A stretch of DNA of 64,000 nucleotides, taken from Actinomycetales bacterium. Lineage in GTDB: Bacteria; Actinomycetota; Actinomycetes; S36-B12. This document shows, piece after piece, positions 274-46,606 of this stretch (position 1 is its first letter; each line of letters opens with the position of its first letter). The notes under the pieces are model-generated. The model was not told the DNA's origin and ran no database searches. It saw only the letters and a list, made by a program, of their open reading frames with translations. The stretch lies in contig WGLX01000012.1 of the NCBI GenBank assembly GCA_016125355.1, positions 124,001 through 188,000 of the forward strand, given 5' to 3'. A program made the translations under genes and the position numbers.

Positions 274-310
274 ACGGGAACCACTCAACGAGGTGTGCCG
301 GTGGGCGTGG

Positions 311-1564
311 CTAGCCGCAGATGCGGAGGATGAGCCGCGCGAGGGCCTGGGCGCTCTGGATCACCTCGTCGACGCGGACGTACTCGTCCGGGGTGTGCGC
401 CGCCTCGGGCGTGCCCGGCCCGTAGTGCACCGTGGGGATCCCGCCGATGCGCGTGAGCAGGCGCAGGTCGGACCCGTACGGACCTCCATACACGTCCAGG
501 GGCTGGCCGGAGACCTCCTCATGCACCTCGGCGACGATGCTGCTGATCGGGTGCTTCGGGTCCACGCGGCCGGACGCGAACTGGCCACCCCACCACGTGA
601 CCCGGGCGGGATGATCGCGGAGCCAGGGGTCGGCAGCGCAGGTCGCCGCGACCGTGGCCTCGAGCTCGGCCCGCGCGTCCTCGACCTCCTCGCCGATGGC
701 GACCCCGAGCCGGCCCTCGGCGACGAGAACGTCGGGCACGGTGGAGGCCCAGTCGCCGGCATGGACGGTGCCGATGCTCAGCGGGTAGGCGATCGGCCAC
801 CGCTCCATGATCGGATCGACGTCCCGATTGCGGCGCGCCTCGAGCTCCTCGAGTGCGTGGTAGAGGGGGATGAAGCGCTCGATCGCGCTCACCCCGCTCA
901 TCCGCATCGACGCGTGCGCCGCCAGGCCCGGAACGGTGAGGCGGAAGGTGAGGGCGCCGCCATTGCCCGGAACCATGCCGAGGCTTGTGGGCTCCGGGAC
1001 GATGCACATGGCGGCCGTGACACCGTGCCGGAGGAGAGCGAACGTGCCGAGACCACCGTCCTCCTCCCCGCTGACGGGTGCGAGGATGACGTCGCCCCGC
1101 AGGGTGATCCCGGCCTCCGCAATGGCCCGGGTGGCTGCCCACATCGCCGCAACCCCGGCCTTCATGTCGCTGGCCCCGCGCGCCACGAGGACGTCGGCGC
1201 CGTTCCGCGACATGCGGCGGGGCACGAAGGGGTCGCCGCTCCAGGCGTCGAGGTCGCCCGGCGGAACGACGTCCGTGTGGCCGTCGAGCAGGAGGGTGGG
1301 GCCGTTGCCGTCGCCCTTCAGCGTCGCCGTGACTCCCACGGCGTGGTCGCGGTCGACCTCCATTCCCGGGAACTCGGGGTCCGCGGTCAGCCTGTCGAGA
1401 TCGATGTCCCATCGGTCGACCTCGAAGCCCTCAGCACTCCAGCGCTCGGCGAGCCAGTCCTGGGCCTCGACCTCCGCAGGCGTGCCGCTCACCGACGGGA
1501 TGGCGAGCAGGGCGGACAGGTCCTCGATGAGGCGGGCGCTGTCGATGTCGGGAACGGAGGTCAT
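311..1564 (-). CDS. M20-family metallo-deacylase (ArgE/DapE type)
   Basis: A 417-residue zinc hydrolase of the M20 group, which removes acyl or peptide groups from small amide substrates in the cytoplasm. Metal ligands are visible in order: His near 96 in 'LLDGHTDVVP', Asp near 133 in 'GASDMKAG', the Glu pair near 167-168 in 'SGEEDGG', Glu near 191 in 'VPEPTS' and a C-terminal His in 'AAHTPDEY'. The dimerisation or lid domain fills the middle, around 'GLAAHASMRMSG'. Length and motif spacing fit acetylornithine deacetylase or succinyl-diaminopimelate desuccinylase relatives, but no arg or dap gene is nearby, so the substrate is not assigned. It is convergent with the preceding gene and divergent from the next. 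Confidence 0.85.
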   Translation of the reverse strand: MTSVPDIDSARLIEDLSALLAIPSVSGTPAEVEAQDWLAERWSAEGFEVDRWDIDLDRLTADPEFPGMEVDRDHAVGVTATLKGDGNGPTLLLDGHTDVVPPGDLDAWSGDPFVPRRMSRNGADVLVARGASDMKAGVAAMWAATRAIAEAGITLRGDVILAPVSGEEDGGLGTFALLRHGVTAAMCIVPEPTSLGMVPGNGGALTFRLTVPGLAAHASMRMSGVSAIERFIPLYHALEELEARRNRDVDPIMERWPIAYPLSIGTVHAGDWASTVPDVLVAEGRLGVAIGEEVEDARAELEATVAATCAADPWLRDHPARVTWWGGQFASGRVDPKHPISSIVAEVHEEVSGQPLDVYGGPYGSDLRLLTRIGGIPTVHYGPGTPEAAHTPDEYVRVDEVIQSAQALARLILRICG

Positions 1565-20996: not shown

Positions 20997-21002
20997 GCCC
21001 CG

Positions 21003-23353: not shown

Positions 23354-23369
23354 CAGCGAAGGAACCATC

Positions 23370-28947: not shown

Positions 28948-29748
28948 TCATCCGGCGAGCTGCTGAAGGCGCTCCTGATCCAGCACGGTGATGCGGCCGC
29001 GGCCCAGGGTGATGAGCCCCCGGTCGGCCAGCTCACCGAGGATCTTGGTGGTGGTCTCGCGCGAGGTCGCGGCCAGCGCGGCGAGCTGCTCATGGGTGAG
29101 CTTGACCTGGACACCCCGGCCGATGGGGCGCCCGGAGGAGGCGGCTGCCAGGGTGACCAGGGCGCCGGCGATTCGTTCGGGCACGGACTTGAACACCGCG
29201 TCGGAGAACTTCTGCTCCAGCTCTCCGATGCGGCGGCCCAGGGTCTCGGAGATCCGTGCCGAGATCCGGGGGTCGCCGAGGAGGAGTCGGCGTACGTCAC
29301 CCTTGGTCATCACGCAGACGACGACGTCGTCGAGGGCCTCTGCGAAGCTGTCGTGCATCTGCTGGCCGACGATCACCATCTCCCCGAAGATGGTGCCGGG
29401 CTCGATGATCGCAGTCGTCAGGGCGCGGCCGTCTGGGGAGACCCGGAAGATCCGGATTCGGCCCTTCTTGAGGATGAAGAGCGTCTCCAGCGGTTGGTGC
29501 GGCGTGTAGACGAGATCACCGGAGGCGTAGGTCTTCATCGGCGCTGCCTGCGCCATCGCGTCCATCTCGGCGTCGTCGAGGTCGCAGAAGATGTCGACCT
29601 CGGACATGCACCACAGCTTGTCCGGGGCAGATCTGGCGCGCTCGATGTCCACGTCTTCCTCTCTGCGTCCCGGGGACCAGGGACGGGCGCCCCCGGCCAG
29701 GTTCTCGGGGTCGGTGATGGTCAGGCAGCTGGGTGGTTCGGTTGCCAT
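28948..29748 (-). CDS. Crp/Fnr-family regulator 1 (likely master regulator of island part B)
   Basis: 266 residues from ATG 29748, with GAGAAGG upstream. A nonconserved 45-residue start precedes a cyclic-nucleotide-binding-like barrel ('YASGDLVYTPHQPLETLFIL', 'EPGTIFGEM'), a long dimer helix and a Crp helix-turn-helix. The recognition helix 'ATSRETTTKILGEL' keeps the Arg-Glu pair that in Crp reads the GTGA half-site. The repeated operator GTGAGCGCGCTTAC in the following 16 kb has such half-sites, so this protein is the best candidate to bind it. The cysteines 'LWCMSEVDIFCDL' could hold an Fe-S cluster or sense redox state. It may start instead at GTG 29652. Confidence 0.82.
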   Translation of the reverse strand: MATEPPSCLTITDPENLAGGARPWSPGRREEDVDIERARSAPDKLWCMSEVDIFCDLDDAEMDAMAQAAPMKTYASGDLVYTPHQPLETLFILKKGRIRIFRVSPDGRALTTAIIEPGTIFGEMVIVGQQMHDSFAEALDDVVVCVMTKGDVRRLLLGDPRISARISETLGRRIGELEQKFSDAVFKSVPERIAGALVTLAAASSGRPIGRGVQVKLTHEQLAALAATSRETTTKILGELADRGLITLGRGRITVLDQERLQQLAG

Positions 29749-29844: not shown

Positions 29845-30441
29845 TCAGTTCTGGGCGACCGTGGCCCGGGCGGGCAGGGCGGTCGAGGACCGGGCGAGTC
29901 CGACGGCGGTGAGTGCGCCCAGGGCCACGCCGTACATCAGGTGCTCGATGATGAAGGTGCCCCAGCCAGCCATCTCGGCCATGTTCTTGATCGGGTCGCC
30001 GCTGTTGAAGATCGCTGCCGCCAGCGGCAGACCGATGTAGGCGCTCATCACGAAGACGAGGAACCCGTAGACCATCCCGACGCCGGCCAGCGCGGCCAGT
30101 CCCAGACGCAGCCGGGAGGCGATCACGCCGAACACGGCGCCGTACATCGCGCCGGTCATCATGTGGATCATCGCGCCGAGGACGGCGGGACCGAACAGGA
30201 ACGTGAACGCGTCGCCGTTCATCTGGTCGGCCTTCATCGACTTCATCATGTTCGCGTCGTTCGTGACCAGGGAGGCGATGTGGTACAGCGGGGTGAAGAA
30301 GCCCGTGTCCTTGGCGTAGGCGGCGATCATCGCGTACATCGCCATCACCAGTGAGGCGATCACCCCGGCGACGGCTCCGATGAGGACAGCCCGACCAAGA
30401 CTGCTGTGCCCGACACTGCTGGGCGTGGTCGTGCGGGTCAT
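29845..30441 (-). CDS. Multi-pass membrane protein under the Crp-like site
   Basis: 198 residues from ATG 30441, with AAGGAG six bases upstream. Four to five membrane helices: 'AVLIGAVAGVIASLVMAMYA', 'PAVLGAMIHMMTGAMYGAVF', 'LAALAGVGMVYGFLVFVMSA' and 'MYGVALGALTAVGLA'. The loop between the first two is methionine- and charge-rich ('NDANMMKSMKADQMNG'), and histidines lie near membrane boundaries ('LYHIAS', 'IEHLMY'), which could bind metal or heme. I do not recognise the family. It has its own operator at 30536 and a terminator, so it is a single-gene unit of the regulon. Confidence 0.6.
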   Translation of the reverse strand: MTRTTTPSSVGHSSLGRAVLIGAVAGVIASLVMAMYAMIAAYAKDTGFFTPLYHIASLVTNDANMMKSMKADQMNGDAFTFLFGPAVLGAMIHMMTGAMYGAVFGVIASRLRLGLAALAGVGMVYGFLVFVMSAYIGLPLAAAIFNSGDPIKNMAEMAGWGTFIIEHLMYGVALGALTAVGLARSSTALPARATVAQN

Positions 30442-30535
30442 GAGGATCTCCTTGTTCGTACTGGGCGAGGTCGGATCGGTTGATCGATCTCGTGGCTGAC
30501 ACGCTGAATGCTTCCGCCGTGGGGTCTCGCGGTCG

Positions 30536-30549
30536 GTGAGCGCGCTTAC
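30536..30549 (-). promoter_or_regulatory. Crp-like operator, site a
   Basis: GTGAGCGCGCTTAC. On the minus strand the hexamer AAGCAT (30513-30508) predicts a start at 30501, which puts the palindrome centre at -41.5. Target: the membrane protein at 29845-30441. Confidence 0.6.
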
Positions 30550-30643
30550 ACAGCGACAGGTATCTCCGAAGACGGGTGAGCCGCGTTCGGTGGCCACGCG
30601 CTCCGCGAACGCACGCACTGACTAGTAGCGGTCGGGCGAAGGG

Positions 30644-31336
30644 TCAGATGCGCCGTCGCTGTGCTCGCGACAGCGCGCGGACGGCGAGGAGCACCTGCAG
30701 GGTGGCAGCTGGCCGGACCCAGCGAGGACGAGGAGCGTCGACCATCCGGCCCCTTCCGATGCTGACTGCCGTGACCACGCCGACGGGCACGAGCCAGGTC
30801 GCGGCAGCCGTGACCCTGAGGGCGCGGCGGTTCTCGCGGTTGGTGGTGAACCAGATCCAGAAGGCGGCGTCGGCGAAGACGTCGGCGTAGGCGCCGAACG
30901 GAGTGGTCGTGCCGGTGCGCCTGGCGAGCCTCCCGTCGACGAAGTCGGTGGCTATAGCGAGGCTTGCCAGCCACGGGTGCCGGGCACTGACGACCGCGGG
31001 GAGGTTGCCGCGGGCCAGGGTCAGGAGGTCGGCGGGGCCGAGATGGGAGCGAACTTCCAGGAGGCCCAGGTGAGTGCTCGCCAACAGCCAGCTGGTCGAG
31101 ACCCAGCGCCGACCCGAAGGCGGGGCCACCGCGAGGAGCAGGCCATGAAGCGCGGTCACCTCGGCCAAGGCGCGTGGATGTAGGCGGGCCTGGTCGACCG
31201 AGCGTCGGCAGGCTGCGACGAGGAACCGCGCCCACGCGGCCGGGCGCCAACGTCCGGCGGCAAGGTCGCGCAGCAGGTCGTCGGTGGCTGCCCGGCTCGA
31301 ACCCGGACCGACACCGGCGGCGAGGTGTCTCAGCAC
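30644..31336 (-). CDS. CDP-alcohol phosphatidyltransferase-family membrane enzyme
   Basis: About 230 residues; start taken as GTG 31336 just after the upstream stop, though an overlapping earlier start is possible because no ribosome site is clear. The full CDP-alcohol phosphotransferase signature DGxxAR-x8-Gx3Dx3D is present as 'VDGRLARRTGTTTPFGAYAD' followed by VFAD. Several membrane segments surround it. The family joins a CDP-activated lipid (or CDP-alcohol) to a polyol or alcohol. Unlike typical phosphatidylglycerophosphate synthases it has a long N-terminal helical extension. It is last in the operon with a SRPBCC protein, a methyltransferase and a radical SAM protein. Confidence 0.72.
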   Translation of the reverse strand: MLRHLAAGVGPGSSRAATDDLLRDLAAGRWRPAAWARFLVAACRRSVDQARLHPRALAEVTALHGLLLAVAPPSGRRWVSTSWLLASTHLGLLEVRSHLGPADLLTLARGNLPAVVSARHPWLASLAIATDFVDGRLARRTGTTTPFGAYADVFADAAFWIWFTTNRENRRALRVTAAATWLVPVGVVTAVSIGRGRMVDAPRPRWVRPAATLQVLLAVRALSRAQRRRI

Positions 31337-31346
31337 GAGACGCGGA

Positions 31347-31928
31347 TCATCGACGCGACGCCGGCTTGCCCGCGGATCGTCGTTCGCTCTCGACGCGGAT
31401 CGCCTCCAGGGACCCTTGCACCGTGGCGACCCAGCTGCGTGCGACGACGTCACCCCACCGCTCGCCGAGCGCGCCGAGGTCGGTGCCGAGCTCGCCGGTG
31501 TAGGTCAGCCGGGTCCCGCTCGGGGTCTCCTCGAGCTCGAATGTCTCCGCGACGTACGGCACCGGCCCGCGCACCAGCCGGAAGCCGATGCGTTCGGGCG
31601 GGGTGAAGGTGACCGTCTCGACGGTCACCGCGACCAGCCCGCCACCGACCGGTGTGCGGTGCGCGGCCAGGACCATCCCCTCGCCACGTTCCAGGATCTG
31701 CACCTTCTCAGCCATGGCCCGGGGCCGGCGTACGGCGTACGGCGCGGTCGCCGCGGCGTAGACGACGTCGCGGGGTGCGGCGATGTCGACGACCAGCGGG
31801 CCCAGCGGGCGGGTTCGCCGCCCTATCCCGAGGTCGAGGCTGAGGCGACCGGTCACCAGGCCGACGTAGCCGGCGGCGCCGGCCCCGACGAGGAGGCCTG
31901 CGCCGGTGAGAAGGCGGCTCACTCGCAT
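31347..31928 (-). CDS. Membrane-anchored SRPBCC (START-like) lipid-pocket protein
   Basis: 193 residues. One N-terminal membrane helix ('LLTGAGLLVGAGAAGYVGLV') is followed by a SRPBCC domain: 'LVVDIAAPRDVVYAAATAPY', beta strands and the long C-terminal helix. This fold encloses a hydrophobic ligand pocket. It overlaps the methyltransferase gene by 10 bases. In an operon with a lipid phosphotransferase and a radical SAM enzyme, it could carry or present a lipid substrate; this is inference. Confidence 0.75.
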   Translation of the reverse strand: MRVSRLLTGAGLLVGAGAAGYVGLVTGRLSLDLGIGRRTRPLGPLVVDIAAPRDVVYAAATAPYAVRRPRAMAEKVQILERGEGMVLAAHRTPVGGGLVAVTVETVTFTPPERIGFRLVRGPVPYVAETFELEETPSGTRLTYTGELGTDLGALGERWGDVVARSWVATVQGSLEAIRVESERRSAGKPASRR

Positions 31929-32722
31929 GGCTTCTCCGCGACGAGCAGCACGTAGTCGAGCGCACCGTCACGTACGGCGGCGCGAGCGGCACCGAGCACC
32001 GGGCCCGCTTTCGCGAAATCCACGCCGAGTGCCTCCAGGCGAGGTCTGGCGGTCATCCGGAGCAGCTCGAGCCGGGCCTCGATCTGGTCGATCATCCGGC
32101 TCAGCGCGTCGGTGTGAGGTTCCGTGGTCAGCACCCGCAGCCCAGCGGTGGTGGCCAGGTCGGCGTACTCGGTCATCGGGCGGGCGTCGGCGACGCAGGC
32201 GATCCAGGCGGTGAGCCCGGTCAGCTCCTCGGGGAGCCGCTCGCGGTCGGCGGCAACGTCGGTGAGGCCGAGCCTGCCTCCGGGGACCAAGAGGCGGGCC
32301 ATCTCCGCGATCGCGGTCGGCTTGTCGGGGAAGGTGCACAACGCGCACTCGCAGAGCACCACGTCCGCGCACTTCTCGGGGAGCGGGACGTTCTCGGCGT
32401 CGCCCAGGTGGAAGTCGGCACGGTCGGTCAGGCCCGCGGATGCCGCGGCCCCGGTGGCGAGGGCGACGTTGGCCGCCGACAGGTCGATGCCGTCGACGCG
32501 GGCGCCGTACTCACGGGCCGCGAGCAGGGCGCTGGTGCCTCTCCCCGAGGCCACGTCGACCAGGCGCTGCCCGGCTGTGAGCCCAACGCGGTCGAACAGC
32601 TGCCGAGTCAGGGTGAGCCCGCCCGGGTGGTAGCTGTCTCCGAGCAGCAGGGAGACCAGGTCGGAGGAGTAGCCGGCGGCACAGCAAGCCTTGAGAGTCT
32701 GGGCGTCCATGTGCGCACTCAT
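31919..32722 (-). CDS. Cysteine-rich SAM methyltransferase, ArsM/UbiE-like
   Basis: 267 residues from ATG 32722, which overlaps the radical SAM stop (ATGA). SAM motif I is 'LVDVASGRGTSALLAAREYG', followed by 'RVDGIDLSAAN' and 'FHLGDAENVPLPE'. It has an early vicinal pair 'LKACCAAGYSSD', then 'VVLCECALCTFPDK' and 'AWIACVADARP', so several cysteines line the expected active site, as in arsenite methyltransferases. The substrate could be a metalloid or a small thiol-bound group; a lipid-like methyl acceptor is also possible from context. It is translationally coupled to the genes on both sides. Confidence 0.78.
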   Translation of the reverse strand: MSAHMDAQTLKACCAAGYSSDLVSLLLGDSYHPGGLTLTRQLFDRVGLTAGQRLVDVASGRGTSALLAAREYGARVDGIDLSAANVALATGAAASAGLTDRADFHLGDAENVPLPEKCADVVLCECALCTFPDKPTAIAEMARLLVPGGRLGLTDVAADRERLPEELTGLTAWIACVADARPMTEYADLATTAGLRVLTTEPHTDALSRMIDQIEARLELLRMTARPRLEALGVDFAKAGPVLGAARAAVRDGALDYVLLVAEKPCE

Positions 32723-34305
32723 CGGGGAGCCTGCTTGCTGCCGTACGGGGTCGTCGTCAGCTGGGGTTGCAGCGGGAGGGCATTGGGCACCACGTCGGCG
32801 ACCGGTACCCCTGACTGCTCGGCGCGGACCTGCTCGCGGTAGCCGACGGAGTTGTAGGCGCAGAACGGGATCAGCCGGCCGTCGGGGGTGATCTCCTCCA
32901 CGCAGCACTTCATCAGCTGGCGCACGTTGAGGGTGTAGGGGTCGAGGAAGTCCTGGACCACGATCATGAACGCATTGTCGGTGATCCCGGCCAGTGCTTC
33001 GGGGAGGTTGACGCCGCAGGCGTCGGCGCAGTCGAGCGCCTCGGCGACCTGGGTGGAGAGCTTGGTGAGGCGGCTGTCGTTGGTCTCGGTGCCGACGAAC
33101 GCCGAGGCGCTCCACAGCTTCTCCAGCGCCTCGCGGATCTCGTAGTCGGGGATCACCCGGTTGGCGACGTAGTCGAGGTAGTCCTCGACCTGGAGCAGCC
33201 GCGGGATCGGCACCAGCCCGAAGTCCGGGTCGTCGGGGTGGCCCTGGGTGAGCAGATAGGTGATGGACCGGCAGGCCGGGGCACAGCACGGCACCGGGAA
33301 GAAGTCCTTGGTCGTGAACCACTGGGGGAGCTGGTCGGCGATGGCGTGCAGCACGTCGGAGTTGGTCAAACGGCTCAGCGGGTCGAACGCCACGTGGCGT
33401 CCCGAATGGGTGACCGGCTGGAACGCGACCGAGCGCACCGCCGGATGGCCAAGGCCGTATCGGACGATGGGTCCGATCTCGTGCTCGTTGAGATCCTTCT
33501 CGATCGCCGCGACCAGGGTGACGGTCAGGCCGGCCTCGGCACAGTTGTCCAGCGCCTTGTGCTTGGTCTCGCGCAGGTCACGGCCACGCACGGCCAGATG
33601 CGTCTCGGCCTCCAGCCCGTCGAACTGCAGGTAGACGTTCACCCGCCGGCCGGGCCGGTTGCGGCGGCCCAGCTCGGCCACGAACCGCTTGTCGGTGGCC
33701 AGCCGGATGCCGTTGGTGTTCAGGTTGACCGCGTTGATCGGTCGCTGCTGGGCCAGGTCGATCATCGCCAGGATGTCGGGGTGGATGGTGGGTTCACCAC
33801 CCGAGAACATCACCACCTCCGGCTCGCCCTCGGCCGCGACGAACGCATCCAGCATGGTGGCGCACTGGTCGAGGGTGATCGAGTAGCCGTCGGGGCCGTT
33901 GGCGCGCGGGCTTCCGGAGTCGGCGAAGCAGATCGGGCAGTCCAGGTTGCAGCCGGTGTTCACCTCGATGATCCCCAGGCAGGCGTGTTGCTTGTGCTCC
34001 GGGCACAGGCCGCAGTCCGACGGGCAGCCGTCCTTAACCTCGGTCTGGGTGCGCAGCGGCCGGGTGCCGGGTTTGTTGAACCGCTGGATGTCGACGTACA
34101 TCTCGGCGTCGCCGTAGACCCGTGCCTCGAACTCGCCATGCTCGGGGCACCGCTTGCGCAGGAACACCTGGTTGTCCCTGGCGTTGACCTCGGCGTCGAC
34201 GGTGCGTTTGCAGACCGGGCAGATGGACTTGGTGAGCTCGAGGAACACCTCGTCGCGCTCGCGTGGCTGCTGGCCGGTCACCGGGCCAGTCTGAGGGATC
34301 GTCAT
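32719..34305 (-). CDS. Radical SAM enzyme of the MJ0619/tetraether-synthase-like group
   Basis: 528 residues from ATG 34305. Order: a rubredoxin-like knuckle (CPVC at 29-32, Cys 53 in 'RKRCPEHGEF'), an extra cluster motif 'CPSDCGLCPEHKQHACL' (94-110), the radical SAM motif 'CNLDCPICF' (Cys 119, 123, 126), 'VMFSGGEPTIHPDI', then C-terminal cysteines ('VPCCAPACRS', 'MKCCVEEITPDGR', 'PFCAYN') for auxiliary clusters. I know this pattern from COG1964 proteins, which include the archaeal tetraether lipid synthase; other members are uncharacterised. Its ATG follows a TAGCGT hexamer and a Crp-like operator at -42, so the message is probably leaderless. It leads the operon with methyltransferase, SRPBCC and CDP-alcohol phosphotransferase genes. 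Confidence 0.8.
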   Translation of the reverse strand: MTIPQTGPVTGQQPRERDEVFLELTKSICPVCKRTVDAEVNARDNQVFLRKRCPEHGEFEARVYGDAEMYVDIQRFNKPGTRPLRTQTEVKDGCPSDCGLCPEHKQHACLGIIEVNTGCNLDCPICFADSGSPRANGPDGYSITLDQCATMLDAFVAAEGEPEVVMFSGGEPTIHPDILAMIDLAQQRPINAVNLNTNGIRLATDKRFVAELGRRNRPGRRVNVYLQFDGLEAETHLAVRGRDLRETKHKALDNCAEAGLTVTLVAAIEKDLNEHEIGPIVRYGLGHPAVRSVAFQPVTHSGRHVAFDPLSRLTNSDVLHAIADQLPQWFTTKDFFPVPCCAPACRSITYLLTQGHPDDPDFGLVPIPRLLQVEDYLDYVANRVIPDYEIREALEKLWSASAFVGTETNDSRLTKLSTQVAEALDCADACGVNLPEALAGITDNAFMIVVQDFLDPYTLNVRQLMKCCVEEITPDGRLIPFCAYNSVGYREQVRAEQSGVPVADVVPNALPLQPQLTTTPYGSKQAPR

Positions 34306-34341
34306 GACGCCCACGCTAGGTCGGCACCCATGCGTCGTTCG

Positions 34342-34355
34342 GTGTGCGCGCTTAC
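34342..34355. promoter_or_regulatory. Crp-like operator, site b (divergent)
   Basis: GTGTGCGCGCTTAC, between the radical SAM operon and the YjeF-NrtS gene. Leftward, TAGCGT (34318-34313) predicts a start at 34306, centre at -42.5. Rightward, CAGTCT (34378-34383) predicts a start at 34390, the ATG itself, centre at -41.5. One site could activate both. Confidence 0.62.
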
Positions 34356-34389
34356 AGTTTGCCGGCCGACTCACCTGCAGTCTTCGACC

Positions 34390-35388
34390 ATGACCACCGG
34401 CATCGGCGCGAGCGAACCCTTCCGGTCGCTGCCGGCCGACCGGGTCCCCGCGATCAGCGTCACGCAGATGCGCCGCGTCGATGAGCTGATGATCAGCAGG
34501 TTCGGGATCGCCCTGGCGCAGATGATGGAGAACGCCGGACGCAGTCTGGCCGAGCTCGCCCAGGCACGCTTCGCCCCTGGCTCGGTGTCGGTCCTGGCCG
34601 GGGCCGGCAACAACGGCGGCGGGGGACTGGTGGCTGCCCGTCATCTGGCCAACCACGGCCTGCGGGTCGAGGTCGTCGTGGCCGGGACGGTCGCGCCGGG
34701 GTCGTTGCTGCAGGCCCAGCTGCAGGCGGCGACCGCGTGCGGCGTCACCCTCGCCGAGGACCCCGGACCCGGTGACCTGGTCGTCGATGCCCTTGTCGGC
34801 TACGGGCTCACCGGCCCGCTTCGGGGCCGGGTCGCGGAGCTGGCCGGCTGGGTGAACAGCCTCGCCGCACCCGTATTGGCCCTCGACGCACCCTCCGGGT
34901 TGGACCTGGACACCGGCATCGCCGACCCTGCTTCGGTTCACGCGACGGCGACGATGACGCTCGCGCTTCCCAAGCACGGGCTCCTCACCGCACCTGAGAC
35001 CGGGGAGCTCTACCTGGCCGACATCTCGGTTCCGAGGCGCCTGTACGCCGGGCTCGGCGTGGAGGTGCCCGTCCTGTTCGCCCGTGGGCCGGTGGTGAGG
35101 CTCCGACGAGCCGATGAGCCAGCGGTCGGCGCTGCCTCAGAGACACCTGATCTGGCCTGGCGCACCTGGTGGCACGCGGGTCGACTGATCGCGACCGGCG
35201 CCACCTTCGCCCCCGCTGCCCAGATCGCTCTGGTCGTAGGAACACTGCTGACCGTGGTCAACCTCGGCGGGCGCATTCTCGGAGGCCAGCTCGACACCGG
35301 CACGTGGGTTCGGGTAGCTGCGAACTACCTGATCCCCTACGTCGTCTCCAGCCTCGGTCTGCTCGCGCGCAGCCGGGTACGCCAGTGA
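34390..35388 (+). CDS. NAD(P)H-hydrate epimerase domain fused to NrtS-like membrane domain
   Basis: 332 residues from ATG 34390. Residues 20-230 are a YjeF_N domain: 'VTQMRRVDELMISRFGIALA', 'MMENAGRSLAELA', 'VLAGAGNNGGGGLVAARHLA', 'VVDALVGYGLTGPLRG' and 'LALDAPSGLDLDTG'. This domain epimerises damaged NAD(P)H hydrates. Residues 255-332 form two membrane helices, 'IALVVGTLLTVVNLGGRIL' and 'VAANYLIPYVVSSLGLLA', which match the small nitrate/nitrite transporter NrtS. I know no characterised protein with this fusion. It lies downstream of a Crp-like site and is probably leaderless. Confidence 0.75.
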   Translation: MTTGIGASEPFRSLPADRVPAISVTQMRRVDELMISRFGIALAQMMENAGRSLAELAQARFAPGSVSVLAGAGNNGGGGLVAARHLANHGLRVEVVVAGTVAPGSLLQAQLQAATACGVTLAEDPGPGDLVVDALVGYGLTGPLRGRVAELAGWVNSLAAPVLALDAPSGLDLDTGIADPASVHATATMTLALPKHGLLTAPETGELYLADISVPRRLYAGLGVEVPVLFARGPVVRLRRADEPAVGAASETPDLAWRTWWHAGRLIATGATFAPAAQIALVVGTLLTVVNLGGRILGGQLDTGTWVRVAANYLIPYVVSSLGLLARSRVRQ

Positions 35389-35414: not shown

Positions 35415-36116
35415 TCAGGTCACCGTGCCGAGGCGGTTGCGGTCCACGACCCGGATGCTGCGGTAGGACACTTCGATCAGCCCGGCGTGCGCGAGTTCCC
35501 CGAGCACCTTGTTCACACTCGGTCGTCGTGCCCCGAGCATGGCCGCGATCGTGGCCTGCGACAACGCGATGCGGCCGTCGCGGTCGGCCTCGTCGAGCAG
35601 CAGCCGGGCGGTCTGGGCCGTCAAGGTGCCACCCAGAAGCCCCACCAGCCGGCTCTGGCTGGAGGCCAGGCGGGCCGCGACGCTGGTCAGCCACCGCCGG
35701 GCGAGCTGGCCGCGAGCAGTGATCAGTCGATCGAACTCCTCGGGGGACAGGAACAGGCACTCGACCCGGTCGACCGCCCGCGCGGTGTAGGGCGGAGGCA
35801 TCCGCAACAGCAGCTGGATGTCGCCATCGACATCACCCTCGCCGAGCACCGCCAGCACTGCCCGCCGCCGACCGGACCCGACCGAGAGCTCCACCTGCCC
35901 GGACCTGACCAGCCAGACCCCGGCCGGTCCGGTTCCGGCCGCGAACAACACCTGGCCGGCCTGCAGGGACCGAGCCTGCAGCGACCCCGCGAGGGCAGCC
36001 AGGTCCTCAGGCCCCAGCGGAACGGTCTCACCCCGGCCGACGCAGCGAGCAACCCACGCCGCGCCGCGGACCGCGGCGGGGTCGGGACCTCGCCTCGGCA
36101 GGAACTGTGTCACCAC
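35415..36116 (-). CDS. Crp/Fnr-family regulator 2
   Basis: 233 residues from GTG 36116. A 40-residue start leads into a cNMP-type barrel ('LQAGQVLFAAGTGPAGVWLV', 'VLGEGDVDGDIQLLL') and a Crp-type helix-turn-helix ('ALSQATIAAMLGARRPSVNK'). The recognition helix has Arg-Arg-Pro in place of Arg-Glu-Thr, so it should read a different sequence from regulator 1. A perfect palindrome, GTGTCA-N6-TGACAC, overlaps its own start codon, which suggests self-repression. It is divergent from the disulfide reductase gene, so that gene is a likely second target. Confidence 0.82.
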   Translation of the reverse strand: MVTQFLPRRGPDPAAVRGAAWVARCVGRGETVPLGPEDLAALAGSLQARSLQAGQVLFAAGTGPAGVWLVRSGQVELSVGSGRRRAVLAVLGEGDVDGDIQLLLRMPPPYTARAVDRVECLFLSPEEFDRLITARGQLARRWLTSVAARLASSQSRLVGLLGGTLTAQTARLLLDEADRDGRIALSQATIAAMLGARRPSVNKVLGELAHAGLIEVSYRSIRVVDRNRLGTVT

Positions 36117-36124
36117 GCTGACAC
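36107..36124 (-). promoter_or_regulatory. Palindromic operator at the start of Crp/Fnr 2
   Basis: GTGTCACCACGCTGACAC: two perfect 6-bp arms around 6 bases, the geometry of Crp/Fnr sites. It covers the start codon of the regulator, a position that blocks transcription or translation. Confidence 0.6.
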
Positions 36125-36231: not shown

Positions 36232-37608
36232 ATGACCGAACAGGTCGACGTGGTGGTCATCGGACTCGGGGTCGGTGGTGAGGAGGTCGCCGGCCGGCTC
36301 GCCGAAGCCGGCCTGAGCGTGGTGGGTGTGGAAGCCGGGCTCGTCGGCGGCGAATGCCCCTACTGGGGATGCGTGCCGACCAAGATGATGGTGCGCGCGG
36401 CCGGACTGGTCGCCGACGTACGCCGTGCCGAGACGGTCGCGGGACGGGCGAGCATCGAGGCGGACTGGGGCCTCGTCGCGGGCCGGATCCGCTCGGAGGC
36501 GACCGACACCTGGGACGACCAGGTGGCCGTCGACCGGTTCGTCGGCAAGGGCGGAACCTTCGTCCGCGGTCGGGGGAGGATCACCGGGCGCGGCGAGGTC
36601 ACCGTGGGGGACCGGGTGTTCACTGCCCGGCGTGGCATCGTCCTGGCCAGCGGGACCGTGCCGTCGGTCCCGCCGATCCCCGGCCTCGCCGACGGGCCCT
36701 ACTGGACCAACCGCGACGCTGTTCAGGTCGAACAGCCGCCGGCGTCACTGGTGGTGATCGGCGGCGGGGCGATCGGCGTGGAGTTCGCCCAGGTCTTCTC
36801 CCGCTTCGGCACCACCGTGACGATCGTCGAGGCAGCCGATCGGTTGCTGCCCGGCGAAGAGCCGGAGGCCGGCCAGCTCCTGGCTGAGGTGCTCGCCGAG
36901 GAGGGCATCGACGTCCGCACCGCAACCTCCATCGAGCGGGTCGACCACGACGGCACGACGTTCACCGTGGCTCTCGGTGGCGGTGGCGGTGGGGGCGGCA
37001 CGGTGGTCGCCGAGCACGTCCTGGTGGCGACCGGCCGACGCGCGGTCCTGAGCGACCTGGGCGTGGACGCCTACAGCGTGCCCACCGCCGCGAGCGCCGT
37101 GGAGACCGACGACCGCCTTCGGGTCGCGGAGGGCCTGTGGGCCGTCGGTGACCTCACCGGGCACGGCGCGTTCACCCACGTCGCGATGTACCAGGCCGAC
37201 ATCGTGGTCCGCGACATCCTCGGCCAGGATGGGCCCGCTGCCAGCTACCACGCGGTTCCGCGGGTCACCTTCGCCGACCCCGAGGTCGGGTCCGTCGGTC
37301 TGACCGAGGACCAGGCCCGCGCGGCCGGCCTCAGCATCAGGGCCGGGTCCAGCCAGGTGCCGTCCTCGGCCCGGGGCTGGATCCACAAGGTCGGCAACGA
37401 AGGGCTCATCAAGCTCGTCGAGGACGCCGACCGCGGAGTCCTCGTCGGCGCCACCTCCGTCGGTCCGCACGGTGGTGAAGTGCTCGGCGCCCTGGCCGTG
37501 GCCGTTCACGCACAGGTCCCCGTCGCACAGCTGCGCTCGATGATCTACGCCTACCCGACCTTCCACCGCGGCATCGAGGACGCCTTGCGCGACCTCGGCC
37601 GGGACTGA
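36232..37608 (+). CDS. Pyridine-nucleotide disulfide oxidoreductase (Lpd/MerA-like)
   Basis: 458 residues from ATG 36232, with AAGGAG upstream. FAD motif 'VVVIGLGVGGEEVAGRLA', redox pair Cys 42/47 in 'GGECPYWGCVPTK', NAD(P) motif 'LVVIGGGAIGVEFAQVFS', FAD motif 2 'GLWAVGDLTGHG' and a dimerisation domain. The C-terminal active-site His-Pro of lipoamide and glutathione reductases is replaced by Tyr-Pro ('YAYPTFHRGIEDAL'), so the proton relay differs. A run of eight glycines lies near residue 250. No C-terminal cysteine pair is present, so it is not a mercuric reductase. It opens a rightward redox operon. Confidence 0.82.
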   Translation: MTEQVDVVVIGLGVGGEEVAGRLAEAGLSVVGVEAGLVGGECPYWGCVPTKMMVRAAGLVADVRRAETVAGRASIEADWGLVAGRIRSEATDTWDDQVAVDRFVGKGGTFVRGRGRITGRGEVTVGDRVFTARRGIVLASGTVPSVPPIPGLADGPYWTNRDAVQVEQPPASLVVIGGGAIGVEFAQVFSRFGTTVTIVEAADRLLPGEEPEAGQLLAEVLAEEGIDVRTATSIERVDHDGTTFTVALGGGGGGGGTVVAEHVLVATGRRAVLSDLGVDAYSVPTAASAVETDDRLRVAEGLWAVGDLTGHGAFTHVAMYQADIVVRDILGQDGPAASYHAVPRVTFADPEVGSVGLTEDQARAAGLSIRAGSSQVPSSARGWIHKVGNEGLIKLVEDADRGVLVGATSVGPHGGEVLGALAVAVHAQVPVAQLRSMIYAYPTFHRGIEDALRDLGRD

Positions 37609-37611: not shown

Positions 37612-38565
37612 ATGACCACCGCGTTCGTGCTCTCCGGCGGCGCCAACCTCGGAGCGACGCAGGTCGGGATGCTGACCGCTCTAGCGGAAGCCGGGGAACG
37701 ACCCGACCTGGTCATCGGCGCCTCGGTGGGAGCCCTCAACGGCGCCTGGGTCGCTGCGGACGCACCCCTGCAGGAGCTGGCGACGGTGTGGCGCACGCTG
37801 CGCCGATCCGACGTGTTCCCCGCCCACCCGCTGCGCGGGCTGCTCGGCTTCGCCGCCCGCAGCGACCATCTGGTCGCCAACAGCGGGCTCCGCCGACTCC
37901 TGGCCGACCACTTGCGCTTCGAGAACCTGCAGGACGCCCCGGTGCCGTTCCACGTCGTGGCCACCGACCTCCTTTCCGGCGCGGGGGTGCTCCTCTCCCA
38001 CGGCGCCGCGGCAGAGGCGATCCTCGCCTCCGCCGCTATCCCCGGGGTACTGCCACCGGTCACCATCGACGGACGCGCCCACATCGACGGCGGGGTCGTC
38101 AACAACACCCCGATCTCGCACGCCGTCGACCTCGGCGCCGACATCGTGTGGGTCCTGGCCACCGGCTACTCCTGCGCGCTCGAGACGCCGCCACGCTCGG
38201 CACTGGGGCTCGCCCTGCACGCGGCGGCTCTCGTGATCCACCAACGCCTCAGCCTGGACGTCGAGCACTATGCCGACAAGGTCGACCTGCGAGTGGTGCC
38301 GCCGCTGTGTCCGATCGCCATCGCCCCGACCGACTTCAGCCAGGCAGAAGACCTGATCAGCCGCTCCTACCAGCACACCCGTGCCTGGCTCTCCCAGCCG
38401 CGGACGCCGTCTCCGAGCTCGCTCTTCGGCGACCATCCGCACCACCGGAATGTGTCAGCACGCAGACAGTCCGGGCCGCCGCCTGCCGTGCCAGGCGTTC
38501 TCAAGGAGAACACCAGCAGCAACCAACCCGCGACCGCATCGACATCAAGGAGAACCCAGCCATGA
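37612..38565 (+). CDS. Patatin-like phospholipase
   Basis: 317 residues, starting three bases after the reductase stop. The oxyanion loop is 'FVLSGGANLGATQVG', the nucleophile elbow 'VIGASVGALNGAW' (GxSxG) and the catalytic Asp 'HIDGGVVNNTPI' (DGG). These enzymes release fatty acids from membrane lipids. The last 50 residues are disordered and rich in Ser, Pro and Arg. Its presence beside lipid-related genes supports an envelope theme. It overlaps the DUF427 gene by ATGA. Confidence 0.85.
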   Translation: MTTAFVLSGGANLGATQVGMLTALAEAGERPDLVIGASVGALNGAWVAADAPLQELATVWRTLRRSDVFPAHPLRGLLGFAARSDHLVANSGLRRLLADHLRFENLQDAPVPFHVVATDLLSGAGVLLSHGAAAEAILASAAIPGVLPPVTIDGRAHIDGGVVNNTPISHAVDLGADIVWVLATGYSCALETPPRSALGLALHAAALVIHQRLSLDVEHYADKVDLRVVPPLCPIAIAPTDFSQAEDLISRSYQHTRAWLSQPRTPSPSSLFGDHPHHRNVSARRQSGPPPAVPGVLKENTSSNQPATASTSRRTQP

Positions 38566-38915
38566 CCTACGCCATCTGGAACGGCACGGTGATCGCCCAG
38601 AGCGAGGACACCGTGGTCGTCGAGGGCAACCACTACTTCCCGCCCGACTCGATCGACTGGGACCTGCTGTCCCCCAACAACCGGCAGACCACGTGCCCCT
38701 GGAAGGGCATGGCCAGCTACTACGACATCACCGTCGACGGCGAGACCAACCGAGCAGCGGCCTGGCAGTACCAGAGCCCCAAGCCGGCCGCCCGTGATAT
38801 TAAGGGTCACCTCGCCTTCTGGGGCGGCGTCCGCGTCACCACCACTGACCCCGCCGACACGGGCGAGCAGGGCTCCGTCGGCACCCTGCGCCGTCTGTTC
38901 ACGCGAGGACGGTGA
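38562..38915 (+). CDS. DUF427 protein, copy 1
   Basis: 117 residues from ATG 38562 behind CAAGGAG. The DUF427 signature is clear: 'DTVVVEGNHYFPPDSI', 'TTCPWKGMASYYDITVDG', 'AAWQYQSPKPAARDIKGHLA'. The conserved Cys in CPWKG may be redox active. DUF427 proteins are small beta-rich cytoplasmic proteins without an assigned reaction. This copy is one of three in 6.5 kb and the most diverged, with Phe-Trp-Gly instead of Phe-Trp-Gln near the end and a longer tail. Confidence 0.85.
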   Translation: MTYAIWNGTVIAQSEDTVVVEGNHYFPPDSIDWDLLSPNNRQTTCPWKGMASYYDITVDGETNRAAAWQYQSPKPAARDIKGHLAFWGGVRVTTTDPADTGEQGSVGTLRRLFTRGR

Positions 38916-40463: not shown

Positions 40464-40492
40464 GAGCCGCACCACGACGACGTGCCCACTAC

Positions 40493-40506
40493 GTGTCCGC
40501 GCTTAC
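40493..40506 (+). promoter_or_regulatory. Crp-like operator, site c
   Basis: GTGTCCGCGCTTAC. GAGAGT (40529-40534) predicts a start exactly at ATG 40541, centre at -41.5. Target: the small membrane protein. Confidence 0.6.
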
Positions 40507-40540
40507 ACAACCGCGCCGCGATCCCGCAGAGAGTGTCACC

Positions 40541-40945
40541 ATGAGCACCTCCACCAGCTCCTCGCAGGCTGGCGAGCGCGACAGCCTCGACCCCTCATCG
40601 GAGCCCGCCTCGCAGCTCCCGTCGGTGCGCATCGGCATGCTGGCCGGTCTGACCGGCATCCTGTGCTGCGTGGGACCCACCGTGCTCGCCATGGTCGGTG
40701 TGGTCGGCGCCGGTACGGCCTACGCGTGGGCCAACACCCTCTACGACGGCTATGCCTGGTTCTTCCGGCTCGCCGGTCTGCTCGTCCTGGGTGGCCTGGT
40801 CGCCTGGTCGCTCAAACGGCGCAACCAATGCGCGCTCGCCGGTGCACGCCGGGTGTGGCCGAAGCTGACGATGAGCCTCGGCGTCGCCGTCCTCACCTAC
40901 GCCGCCCTCTACGCCCTGACCACCTGGCTCGGCACGTTCGCCTAA
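40541..40945 (+). CDS. Small three-helix membrane protein with Cys-Cys pair (MerT-like)
   Basis: 134 residues. A polar N-terminal tail of 30 residues precedes three membrane helices. The first holds a vicinal cysteine pair ('LTGILCCVGPTVLAMVGVVG'), the arrangement used by MerT-type transporters to pass a soft metal ion. A single cysteine lies in the loop before the third helix ('KRRNQCALAG'). The resemblance is topological and limited to the cysteine motif. It is probably leaderless and directly controlled by site c. Confidence 0.6.
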   Translation: MSTSTSSSQAGERDSLDPSSEPASQLPSVRIGMLAGLTGILCCVGPTVLAMVGVVGAGTAYAWANTLYDGYAWFFRLAGLLVLGGLVAWSLKRRNQCALAGARRVWPKLTMSLGVAVLTYAALYALTTWLGTFA

Positions 40946-44730: not shown

Positions 44731-45059
44731 CGCCGCGGCCCCTCGGGCAGTGGGCGTGTGTCGTCGTCGTGGACGGAGCGGATCTCGACACCATTCCCGA
44801 AGGCGGCCCGGCCCTTGATCCGGCGGGCCAGGAACGATGGACGGGGGTAGTACCAGGCTGCTTTCCGACTGGCCACGCCGTCGACCTCGACGTCGTAGTA
44901 GGGGGCCAACCCCTTCCACGGGCACAGCGTTCGGGTGCGGCTGGGCCGCAGGTACTCCGAGAGCAGGGAGTCGGGCAGGAGGTAGTGGTTGCCTTCGACG
45001 ACCACGGTGTCGGCGCTGTCCGCGATGACGGTTTCGTTGAAGACGGCCTGCATTCTCAT
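44727..45059 (-). CDS. DUF427 protein, copy 3
   Basis: 110 residues from ATG 45059, with GAGGAG five bases upstream. Motifs 'DTVVVEGNHYLLPDSLLSEY', 'RTLCPWKGLAPYYDVEVDGV' and 'AAWYYPRPSFLARRIKGRAA'. It is enclosed by ATGA overlaps on both sides, between CcdA and the glutaredoxin-membrane protein, which is the strongest hint that DUF427 works in thiol redox chemistry in this organism. Confidence 0.85.
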   Translation of the reverse strand: MRMQAVFNETVIADSADTVVVEGNHYLLPDSLLSEYLRPSRTRTLCPWKGLAPYYDVEVDGVASRKAAWYYPRPSFLARRIKGRAAFGNGVEIRSVHDDDTRPLPEGPRR

Positions 45060-45961
45060 GACTTCTCCTCGAGTCGTTGGGGAGCTTGCGGGACGGGCTC
45101 GGCCGCCGGGGCTGAGAGCGCGCGGCGGCGTGGACGCCGGAGGGCGATGAGCGCCAGTGCAGCCAGGGCAACGCCGAAGCCCACGGCTCCGATTCCTTGC
45201 ACGCGGGCGGCAAGCCACCGCTGGAGTGATTCTGCGGCGATGACCAGCGGATCCGTGCCCGCGCCCGCGTGCAGCACCCGGAGCTCCCAGGCGCCGTACC
45301 AGGCGACGTATGCACCGGCCAGCAACAGGACCAGGCCGCCGATCCGTGGCAGAGCTCCTCCGAGGGAGCGCATCCGGGTGATCAGCCCGCCTCGCGCCAG
45401 CGCGGTGGCGACGGCCGCGGCCCCGACGACGAGGCCCATTCCGCCGGCGTAGACGAGGAACAGGACCAACCCCTGTGCCGTAGATCCAGACCTGAACGAT
45501 GTCACCACCACGGCGAGGAACGGCGCGATCGTGCATCCCATGGATGCGATGGCGTAGCTGGCTCCGAAGCCGGTCATCGAGGCCCAGCTCGCGGTGGGCG
45601 GCTGAACCCGGGCGCTGCGGCGACGTCGGACCGGGATCGTGGGCAGTCGGCGACCCAGTGCCACCCAGAGCCCGGCGACGGCCAGCACGACTCCGAACAG
45701 GACCGTGAACGCGGGCAGGTAGCCCTGCACCGACGCGGCGACCGGCGCGACCGCCAGACCGAAGGCCAAGAACACGCCGGCGAAGCCGGTTGTCAGGGCG
45801 AGGGTGGCGCGGGCCGCGCGCGCCACGGCCACCTGGCGGGGAAGCTCCCGATGATCCAGCACGAACAACGACAGGTACGCCGGCAACAGGGCGAAGCCGC
45901 AGGGGTTGACCGCCGCCAGCATGCCCGCGCCGAGCGCGAGCCCGATCGATCCGGCATCCAT
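45056..45961 (-). CDS. CcdA/DsbD-type thiol electron transporter
   Basis: 301 residues with six to seven membrane helices. Cys near 21 in 'AAVNPCGFALLPAYLSLF' and Cys near 143 in 'SMGCTIAPFLAVV' form the redox pair that moves electrons across the membrane to an external thioredoxin. The tail is a short cytoplasmic stretch rich in Pro and Arg. The outer partner is probably the thioredoxin-like lipoprotein encoded six bases upstream. Both belong to one operon with DUF427 copy 3. Confidence 0.85.
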   Translation of the reverse strand: MDAGSIGLALGAGMLAAVNPCGFALLPAYLSLFVLDHRELPRQVAVARAARATLALTTGFAGVFLAFGLAVAPVAASVQGYLPAFTVLFGVVLAVAGLWVALGRRLPTIPVRRRRSARVQPPTASWASMTGFGASYAIASMGCTIAPFLAVVVTSFRSGSTAQGLVLFLVYAGGMGLVVGAAAVATALARGGLITRMRSLGGALPRIGGLVLLLAGAYVAWYGAWELRVLHAGAGTDPLVIAAESLQRWLAARVQGIGAVGFGVALAALALIALRRPRRRALSAPAAEPVPQAPQRLEEKS

Positions 45962-45966: not shown

Positions 45967-46476
45967 TCAGCCGGCCAGCTGCGCGACCAGCGCGTTCAGC
46001 TGGGCGTCTTCCAGGTAACCCTCGGATACGATCTCGCCGTCGGCCGAGATCACCGTGAAGGTGCTCTGCGCAGTCACCCCGAAGTGCCGCCAGATCTCAC
46101 CGTCCGGATCCACCAGGTGCGTGACGGAAGGAATCCTTCCCGCCAGGTCTTCGATCGCGGGTCCCGAGTCCAAGCCACCCACACCCACCACAGCCACCTT
46201 CCCCTGATACTTCTGCGCCAGCGCGGATACGTTCACGCTCTGGGCGCGGCACGTCGGGCACCAGGGAGCCCAGAACCACAGCACCGCCGGCTCGCCTTCC
46301 AGCGAGCTGCCATTGAACGCCGTCCCCGACAGGGTCGTCCCGGAGAAGTCGTAGTCGGCGGTCTTCCCGGTGCCGATCGGCTCCCCACCAGTGGCGCGAG
46401 AGTCGCTCGCGGTCGTGGTGCCGCAGCCGGCCAGCGTGAGCAGTGCCACGACGAGGGCAGCGATGATCCAGCGCAT
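45967..46476 (-). CDS. Thioredoxin-like lipoprotein (TlpA/ResA type)
   Basis: 169 residues. Lipobox 'ALLTLAGCGTTT' anchors it outside the membrane. The thioredoxin domain has 'VLWFWAPWCPTCRAQSVNV' (CPTC) and 'QSTFTVISADGEIV' with a Thr-Phe in place of the cis-Pro neighbourhood. It should exchange disulfides with exported proteins and be reduced by CcdA. Crp-like site e lies 42 bases upstream, and GAGGAT (46489-46484, minus strand) fits a leaderless start. Confidence 0.85.
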   Translation of the reverse strand: MRWIIAALVVALLTLAGCGTTTASDSRATGGEPIGTGKTADYDFSGTTLSGTAFNGSSLEGEPAVLWFWAPWCPTCRAQSVNVSALAQKYQGKVAVVGVGGLDSGPAIEDLAGRIPSVTHLVDPDGEIWRHFGVTAQSTFTVISADGEIVSEGYLEDAQLNALVAQLAG

Positions 46477-46511
46477 ACCCCCGATCCTCCGCCAGGTCTG
46501 GTCGGCGTTCT

Positions 46512-46525
46512 GTGAGCGCGCTTAC
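46512..46525 (-). promoter_or_regulatory. Crp-like operator, site e
   Basis: GTGAGCGCGCTTAC, identical to site a. With GAGGAT as -10 the leftward start is 46477, centre at -41.5. Target: the thioredoxin/CcdA/DUF427/glutaredoxin operon. It could also act rightward on the SRPBCC gene at 46607. Confidence 0.62.
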
Positions 46526-46606
46526 GCAAGGCCGCGGAGTTCCAACCGGAAATCCCGGGAGACGCTCGACGCCGATCGTGGATCGGCATTGGGGGAGGAT
46601 GAACGC

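Follow-up and report, generated by a model that had tools for sequence, protein, structure and literature searches.

A tetraether-synthase-like radical SAM protein and its methyltransferase partner as a candidate lipid-tailoring pair in bacteria

Introduction

Bacterial homologues of tetraether synthase (Tes, also GDGT-MAS; MJ0619, PDB 7tol and 7tom, NCBIfam NF045702) are known and have been proposed as the enzymes of branched glycerol dialkyl glycerol tetraether (brGDGT) formation (PMC8941075, PMC11868695, PMC10087280). Surveys list such homologues as possible makers of membrane-spanning lipids, the source of the brGDGT climate proxies (PMC8941075, PMC11868695). Here, we describe a relative of Tes, a radical S-adenosylmethionine (SAM) protein (rSAM), encoded together with a methyltransferase (MTase) in a four-gene operon of an Actinomycetales bacterium (GCA_016125355.1, contig WGLX01000012.1, positions 124,001 to 188,000 of the forward strand; this stretch of 64,000 nucleotides is called the window). 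We consider it about evenly balanced whether the pair is a two-enzyme module that, under stress to the envelope or to thiols, tailors glycerophospholipids, most likely in their acyl chains.

In Tes, the residues Met439 and Tyr459 are completely conserved in 1000 archaeal homologues, the variants Y459F and Y459L are still active, so that Tyr459 is dispensable, and a sulfur-bearing lipid, S-AG, has been seen with the enzyme (PMC9433317). Acyl-chain coupling in bacteria has been ascribed to Mss, the membrane-spanning lipid synthase (PMC13274423, PMC11868695), which is considered here by this described activity. Further points of comparison are TrsS (NF045646), the DVU_1556-type methyltransferases (NF045667) and the arsenite methyltransferase ArsM (PRK11873; PDB 5evj, 4fr0).

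Results

The earlier note, made from the sequence alone, had described four tightly coupled genes, and these form a real operon on the minus strand (30644-34305). It begins with the rSAM gene (32719..34305; start ATG 34305 or GTG 34314, stop 32719), whose product of 528 amino acids belongs to the Tes/TrsS superfamily and combines an HMPTM zinc ribbon with a Radical_SAM domain (Pfam). The rubredoxin-like and extra cluster cysteines that had been pointed out are present as a rubredoxin-type CxxC...CxxH, a CxxxCxxCxxH and a CxxxCxxC motif, plus more cysteines. The rSAM stop overlaps by 4 nucleotides (ATGA) with the start of an ArsM-like SAM methyltransferase of class I (31919..32722, ATG 32722), the usual partner of rSAM, which in turn overlaps by 10 nucleotides with an SRPBCC gene of the Polyketide_cyc2 family (31347..31928, ATG 31928; both assignments from Pfam and NCBIfam) encoding a hydrophobic-looking N-terminus. 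After a gap of 10 nucleotides follows a CDP-alcohol phosphotransferase paralogue with an N-terminal extension (30644..31336), which most likely starts at GTG 31336, a further possible start lying at 31453. Its full signature, also claimed before, stands: the protein belongs to the superfamily by its PF01066 match (40.2 bits, gathering threshold 22) and a complete DxxDGxxAR(x8)GxxxDxxxD motif. The genome holds six PF01066 matches, of which this is one, and its subfamily is rare, occurring in three of 396 genomes of the phylum at E 1e-10 (the own genome, G186 and G201); G186 also has rSAM, and G201 is without it at E 1e-30. The operon is more than a chance arrangement, because rSAM is 63-85% identical to many Actinomycetota proteins (best segment, among the matches listed) and the MTase accompanies it across phyla.

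The predicted structure of rSAM (mean predicted local distance difference test score 81.5) superimposes on Tes over its whole length, with Z 48.1, 2.8 A, 417 residues (18..502) and 31% identity, the second-best family reaching Z 20.5; the sequence match to PDB 7tol has E 1e-76. The kinship with Tes that had been suspected is thus borne out, also by the comparison of structures proposed to check it. The alignment of Cys and His ligands indicates that the rubredoxin site, the N-terminal cluster, the SAM cluster and three cysteines of the C-terminal cluster are retained. rSAM therefore has the whole Tes fold and every metal-site residue bar one ligand. That ligand is Met439 of Tes, the labile ligand of the C-terminal cluster, which corresponds to Gln451 of rSAM; Tyr459 corresponds to Glu471. 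Equivalents of both residues occur in 33/33 Tes rows of the alignment and in 0/85 window-type rows (with 1 and 3 gaps, respectively). The Met439 column holds Gln in 33 of the 34 other Actinomycetota rows and a gap in one, and among the 50 remaining rows Gln 27, Lys 14, Arg 4, His 3 and Thr 2 times. At Tyr459, the same Actinomycetota rows have Glu 28, Gln 4 and gaps 2 times, and the 50 others Ile (21), Phe (16), Val (5), Glu (4), Gln (3) and one gap.

Four additional cysteines set the window type further apart. Cys340 is found in 34/34 other Actinomycetota and 50/50 remaining rows (Tes 0/33, TrsS 5/13), Cys341 in 34/34 and 47/50 (Tes 16/33, TrsS 0/13), Cys426 in 32/34 and 50/50 and Cys430 in 33/34 and 41/50 (both absent from all 33 Tes and 13 TrsS rows). 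TrsS thus lacks Cys341, Cys426 and Cys430 and, in contrast to the window type, mostly keeps the Met (11/13). All 46 rSAM proteins of one alignment (A2) match both the TrsS and the Tes model at E 1e-20. The window protein itself stays below both cut-offs, with 321 bits against the Tes model (cut-off 450) and 329.1 bits against the TrsS model (cut-off 490), which makes TrsS its best-scoring named family.

Phylogenetic analysis agrees with this separation. In a quick tree of 142 rows, the window protein falls inside an Actinomycetota clade of 35 rows (support 100) within a wider clade of 85 rows (91). In a more careful tree of 62 rows, a branch with 98/99 support parts Tes and the acidobacterial Tes-like paralogues described below from TrsS and the window type, which share its other side; TrsS forms a set at 97/94 and the window protein belongs to a 38-row set at 100/100. 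No single branch of this tree cuts off exactly the window clade as first drawn (2 changes; 18% of 200 bootstraps), as the Lgt-linked rows L034, L167 and L170 and the Actinomycetota rows L021, L023, L026 and L041-L043 fall beside or within it. The firm grouping in this tree is the 38-row set, apart from both TrsS and Tes. The earlier note had placed the protein in COG1964, and it does lie on a branch of this group distant from Tes; another known reaction for this branch was not found.

Window-type proteins also coexist with Tes or its closer relatives. Two thaumarchaeal genomes (G454, G463) encode a true Tes (690 and 698 bits, above the cut-off) and a separate window-type protein (262 and 270 bits), and all five acidobacterial genomes searched hold a Tes-like paralogue beside the window-type protein (frame of about 650-710 amino acids). 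Four of these paralogues are complete in their C-terminal part, and all four have both Met and Tyr; the fifth keeps Met, the following stretch missing from its sequence. On the combined sequence evidence, namely scores below the Tes and TrsS cut-offs, another tree branch, replaced Met and Tyr, four added cysteines and coexistence with Tes or Tes-like paralogues, we conclude that the window rSAM is not Tes; the loss of Tyr459 alone would not be decisive, because the Y459F and Y459L variants of Tes are active. The joining of acyl chains, which had been suggested for the operon, is hence not upheld.

The acidobacterial paralogues would be better candidates than the window type for tetraether synthesis or coupling in bacteria, because they keep Met and Tyr and group with Tes at 98/99. 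In four of them (L142, L219, L220, L221; 620-702 amino acids, Met439 and Tyr459 kept) the N-terminal cluster motif is absent in the alignment, so that they do not appear to be textbook Tes either. Solibacter usitatus, a brGDGT producer, reportedly has two Tes homologues, for 'one or both' of which a tetraether role has been proposed (PMC10087280); by analogy, one of the two may be of the window type. As a separate observation, the rSAM relatives L034 (on a Persicobacter plasmid, adjoining an Lgt-family gene) and L217 have lost C-cluster cysteines (positions 467/482) and, judged from this loss, cannot run Tes-type cluster chemistry unchanged.

The MTase lies on the same strand within 3.5 kb of rSAM in 33/35 Actinomycetota and 43/50 other loci, and within 10 kb in 41 of 43 full loci compared with three of 40 control windows (20 kb each, from six genomes; these two sets also underlie the comparisons of neighbouring genes below). 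The ATGA overlap recurs in 14 of 16 loci compared, out of 48 listed, and Mycobacterium gastri has a natural rSAM-MTase fusion of 798 amino acids (L075:9950-12346). A 925-amino-acid frame in locus L079 has matches to both proteins. In contrast, none of 32 Tes loci has an adjoining MTase (1.5-kb flanks). A related, DVU_1556-type methyltransferase adjoins rSAM in nine of 13 TrsS loci, upstream in six and downstream in three of the nine, whereas the MTase of the window type lies downstream. DVU_1556 is also the best model for the window MTase (124.8 bits, cut-off 155), ahead of arsenite methyltransferase (100 bits, cut-off 263); it stays below both cut-offs, and 35/35 MTases match both models. Besides the class I fold, the MTase has the conserved cysteine triad of the ArsM type: its Cys13/14, Cys126 and Cys176 align with Cys27/28, 151 and 201 of the window's own ArsM, and Cys14, 126 and 176 are invariant in 35/35. 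In the structure search, antibiotic, phosphoethanolamine, mycolic-acid and prenyl methyltransferases all reach Z 24-29; ArsM was not among the 50 matches shown, which proves nothing either way.

Lgt transfers a diacylglyceryl group from phosphatidylglycerol onto a thiol. A gene of this family takes the place of the MTase in a few loci: where there is room downstream (80 of 85 loci), 74 have only the MTase within 3.5 kb, five only Lgt, one neither (L117) and none both, and the MTase is present in two of the five loci at contig ends. The five Lgt loci belong to two groups of the tree (L090/L131 and L109/L118/L125), and outside the clade Lgt without MTase is found at L034, L045/L019, L167 and L170 (the last two with flanks of only 1.5 kb). 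Six genomes, covering four of the five in-clade Lgt loci (without L109) and two outside, were searched for a second Lgt. All six hold another Lgt, and the rSAM-side copy is not the best-scoring one in five; in G753 the two tie (156.1 and 153.8 bits). Since another Lgt is present in all six and the rSAM-side copy is best in none of these five, the latter looks like a specialised second copy. By sequence criteria, rSAM and MTase are probably one functional unit. Judging by the fusion, the overlapping genes and the exchange of the MTase for Lgt, the partner may act together with rSAM or immediately after it.

At E 1e-20, rSAM has no match in any of 58 further genomes, in part incomplete, from its genus, family and order. 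At E 1e-30, relatives are found in 22 of 396 genomes of the phylum, six of them at 66% identity or more (own genome included in both counts), and a Mycolicibacterium vanbaalenii plasmid carries a copy with 72% identity. A scan of named genomes gave at least 569 relatives; the best 80 were kept, and these come from Actinomycetota, Chloroflexota, Acidobacteriota, Methylomirabilota, Thermomicrobiales, metagenome-assembled genomes of Bacillota and two Thaumarchaeota. From this patchy occurrence, with none in near relatives and copies in distant taxa, the window gene looks horizontally acquired; its content of guanine and cytosine is not outstanding.

A palindromic operator links the operon to other genes of the window. 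The 16-base pattern TGTAAGCGCGCWCACC was derived from two sites, those preceding rSAM and gene 29845; with up to 3 mismatches it is matched 6 times, in five places, where shuffled sequences lead to an expectation of 1.14. A first site matrix was trained partly on window sites. The trusted count comes from a second matrix, whose training set was 12 sites of rSAM operons in other genomes, none of them from the window; with a threshold of 14 bits it detects 5 window sites, all within 28-51 kb, compared with 4 in 440 kb of control DNA. Pattern and matrix agree on the sites before the rSAM operon (34341..34356), before gene 29845-30441 (30535..30550) and before the TlpA/CcdA pair (46511..46526). 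The matrix adds one site between a Crp gene (35415-36116), whose start it overlaps, and the disulfide reductase gene 36232-37608 (36108..36123), and one inside the 3' end of the patatin gene, 94 nucleotides before the DUF427 gene 38562 (38453..38468). Weaker copies, below 14 bits in the trusted matrix, precede the MerT-like gene 40541 (40492..40507) and the DUF427 gene 41058 (at 40987). In other genera, sites of the same kind stand before MauE-rSAM-MTase operons, between CDP-alcohol transferase and SRPBCC genes (L071, L087, L126; L071 also carries an rSAM-side site) and between DUF427 and Crp genes (L058, L068), and the operator is not found in every locus. A plain Crp consensus upstream of each homologue is not significant for most loci; the specific palindrome describes the sites better. 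Its form, TGTRA-N6-TYACA, fits a Crp-type protein, for which two Crp/Fnr-type genes of the window are candidates (28948..29748 and 35415..36116, both minus strand). The proposed link to a Crp-like regulator is thereby strengthened at the sequence level, by the recurrent putative operator and by Crp genes near rSAM (14/43 vs 1/40).

Within 10 kb of rSAM, lipid-type genes are more frequent than in the control windows: SRPBCC 11/43 vs 0/40, CDP-alcohol transferase 7/43 vs 0/40 and PlsY 6/43 vs 0/40. The same holds for thiol-redox genes, with TlpA in 14/43 vs 0/40, CcdA in 9/43 vs 0/40 and an FAD disulfide reductase in 15/43 vs 1/40, and for DUF427 (11/43 vs 0/40) and MauE-like genes (10/43 vs 0/40). 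The enrichment is not significant for GH15 (4 vs 1), YjeF (3 vs 0), patatin (1 vs 0), MerR (4 vs 1) and the family of gene 29845 (2 vs 0). Within 11 kb, SRPBCC accompanies 13/35 and the CDP-alcohol transferase 11/35 Actinomycetota loci, with 5/50 and 3/50 in the others. Of the four-gene set regarded earlier as one system, the operon itself is real, and SRPBCC and the transferase are frequent rather than constant companions of the pair. The lipid theme of the surroundings persists in the nearby PlsY, Lgt-family, CDP-alcohol transferase and SRPBCC genes. Four Chloroflexota loci share the order rSAM>SRPBCC>MTase, with YjeF next in three.

Discussion

The fold, cluster ligands, pairing, fusion, Lgt/MTase alternation, shared operator and enrichments come directly from the comparison of sequences. 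On this basis, we consider it likely that both enzymes work on one molecule, one after the other, and, with slightly less assurance, that this molecule is a glycerophospholipid, to which the fold, the pocket and the lipid-type companions point. In the mechanism that we propose, rSAM would bind a lipid in its Tes-type pocket and, by means of SAM and the radical cluster, abstract a hydrogen from one of the lipid's unreactive carbons. For the steps beyond this abstraction, we infer that the activated chain would be finished by the adjoining partner, mostly the ArsM-like MTase and in few genomes an Lgt-family enzyme, that the CDP-alcohol phosphotransferase and the SRPBCC protein could supply or handle the lipid, and that TlpA/CcdA and disulfide reductases may keep thiols reduced. 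A Crp-type regulator could switch on the gene set via the common palindrome.

Several observations weigh against lipid tailoring by the pair. The loci are related and not independent, so that p-values are optimistic, and the control windows come from six genomes only. The enrichment of Lgt over random DNA is not significant (2/43 vs 0/40, p 0.27), the lipid enzymes vary by lineage, with PlsY mostly in one Chloroflexota subclade, and the neighbours in Chloroflexota and Acidobacteriota are otherwise mixed in function in the neighbour census. In many loci none of the lipid genes looked for is present; both thaumarchaeal loci are among them (searched over 1 kb upstream, 3 and 10 kb downstream). 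At the M. vanbaalenii plasmid locus, SRPBCC and CDP-alcohol transferase are both missing within 11 kb. TrsS and not Tes scores best for rSAM, and no lipid role of Trs was found. The modelled fold of the MTase gives no information on its substrate, the training sites of the trusted operator matrix were picked after earlier operator scans had been viewed, and the literature search found no reaction for any member of the clade.

One alternative is a bacterial synthase of tetraether or membrane-spanning lipids, with rSAM coupling the ends of two acyl chains as in Tes and the MTase methylating what is formed. The clade occurs in Bryobacterales, the order of the brGDGT producer Solibacter. A tetraether role has been proposed for bacterial Tes homologues generally (Zeng et al. 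2022, PMC8941075) and for Solibacter usitatus (PMC10087280), and it would suit the Tes fold and clusters, the lipid-type genes nearby and the dispensability of Tyr459 (PMC9433317). We nevertheless regard it as improbable, given that the Met and Tyr found in every Tes row occur in no window-type row and that true Tes or a Tes-like paralogue is encoded beside the window type in the thaumarchaeal and acidobacterial genomes. The pair could also be a relative of the Trs system that makes or matures a small molecule in cofactor or natural-product chemistry. TrsS and DVU_1556 are its best NCBIfam models, the 98/99 branch does not separate TrsS from the clade, and most TrsS loci have a matching MTase; however, both models stay below their cut-offs, lipid-type genes recur near the clade, and the analogy says little as a description of Trs function was not found in the literature search. 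We rate this possibility as unlikely, yet worth keeping in mind.

Alternatively, the two enzymes might bond carbon to arsenic or a similar element, for instance in a lipid tail. An ArsL radical SAM enzyme and an ArsM-like methyltransferase are reportedly encoded together in arsinothricin biosynthesis. This pair is a precedent (PMC8552651) by its gene pairing, and it differs in that the type of pair described here is without an arsenic context. The cysteines aligned with ArsM, the invariant triad and the match of every MTase to the arsenite methyltransferase model speak for such chemistry. Against it, ArsA, ArsC, the aquaporin and the first ArsR of the window have no homologue in 92 other rSAM loci (BLAST, E 1e-6) and the second ArsR is matched weakly in three of them, the MTase scores higher with DVU_1556, and the Lgt variant has no place in it; we find it very improbable. 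Since the arsenic genes do not accompany the pair elsewhere, arsenic is less likely than sulfur. Least of all do we expect that the pair is a unit with a protein or another envelope molecule as substrate, the lipid genes being chance neighbours in a mobile stress island. The missing matches in near relatives, the integrase-like genes and transposase of the window and the surrounding stress genes would fit, but the operator recurs in other genera both between CDP-alcohol transferase and SRPBCC and before the rSAM operon (L087, L126; L071 with its rSAM-side site), and Lgt and MTase alternate across several lineages.

Returning to lipid tailoring, it is doubtful that the atom capped by the partner is sulfur or a similar soft atom. 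In a still more speculative form, which we hold to be improbable as a whole, the pair would run only the first half of the Tes reaction: the acyl radical would be captured at the C-terminal cluster through a C-S bond, loss of the Met ligand together with the additional cysteines would allow a lipid thiol to leave this cluster, and the partner would cap it by S-methylation (MTase) or S-diacylglyceryl transfer (Lgt-family enzyme). Such a product would join the sulfur-lipid intermediate of Tes, the changed C-terminal cluster, ArsM- and Lgt-type partners suited to thiols, and the thiol-redox genes in the regulon. If true, it would mean a new class of bacterial lipids, chain-end or mid-chain thioether lipids, made by members of the Chloroflexota, Acidobacteriota and Actinomycetota and some Thaumarchaeota.

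A search of the literature (titles, abstract starts and term counts, with few subscription papers) found no description of the rSAM-MTase pair, the Lgt variant or the function of Trs. The split of the clade from Tes by residues and coexistence, the MTase/Lgt alternation and the regulon were not found in print in this search either. Owing to its strong similarity to Tes, the window clade may well be picked up in surveys that infer membrane-spanning lipids from Tes homologues in bacteria. A simple test could separate the two: Met439/Tyr459, the extra cysteines and an MTase or Lgt neighbour. The two-gene unit is defined in named strains of Streptomyces, Salinispora, Pseudonocardia and Ktedonobacter, where its product can be sought.

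Other features of the window

Behind an operator, a protein with a weak DUF4199 match is encoded (29845..30441, minus). Divergent from the operon lies a gene with a YjeF_N domain and an NrtS-like C-terminal part (34390..35388, plus), the latter 41% identical over 81 amino acids to an annotated nitrate/nitrite transporter NrtS of a Mycolicibacterium plasmid. The disulfide reductase gene (36232..37608, plus) belongs to the lipoamide-dehydrogenase/mercury-reductase class, below cut-offs, and the TlpA-type thioredoxin/redoxin (45967..46476) and the CcdA/DsbD-type membrane thiol carrier (45056..45961; both minus) form a pair 11 kb from the operon. The patatin-type lipase and the hydrolase/OsmC fusion pointed out nearby are both real. 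Three related genes of the DUF427 type stand in the island, one confirmed by Pfam (38562..38915, plus) and two related copies (41058-41396 and 44727-45053), and two of the three lie behind the palindromic operator. A MerT-like protein with a weak Pfam match (40541..40945, plus) has homologues in nine of 92 other rSAM loci. A mercury role was considered in view of the MerT-like and disulfide reductase genes and rejected, both reductases scoring below the MerA cut-off (291 and 272 vs 454 bits). The GH15/trehalase-like gene 42074-43891 (plus) has homologues with 62% and 50% identity in the distant rSAM loci L040 and L037 and is not enriched over controls.

Elsewhere in the window, an arsenic island (17607-25177) encodes a fusion protein (19385-20665, minus) of arsenite methyltransferase (300 bits) and an ArsD metallochaperone domain (113 bits; both above cut-off), beside ArsA, ArsR-type genes, an aquaporin-type channel and an ArsC-like phosphatase. 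It is bracketed by two integrase-like genes (16469-17431 and 28005-28928, plus) that are 87% identical over 307 amino acids, and between these lies a transposase of two open reading frames (26303-27462; family names assigned by eye).

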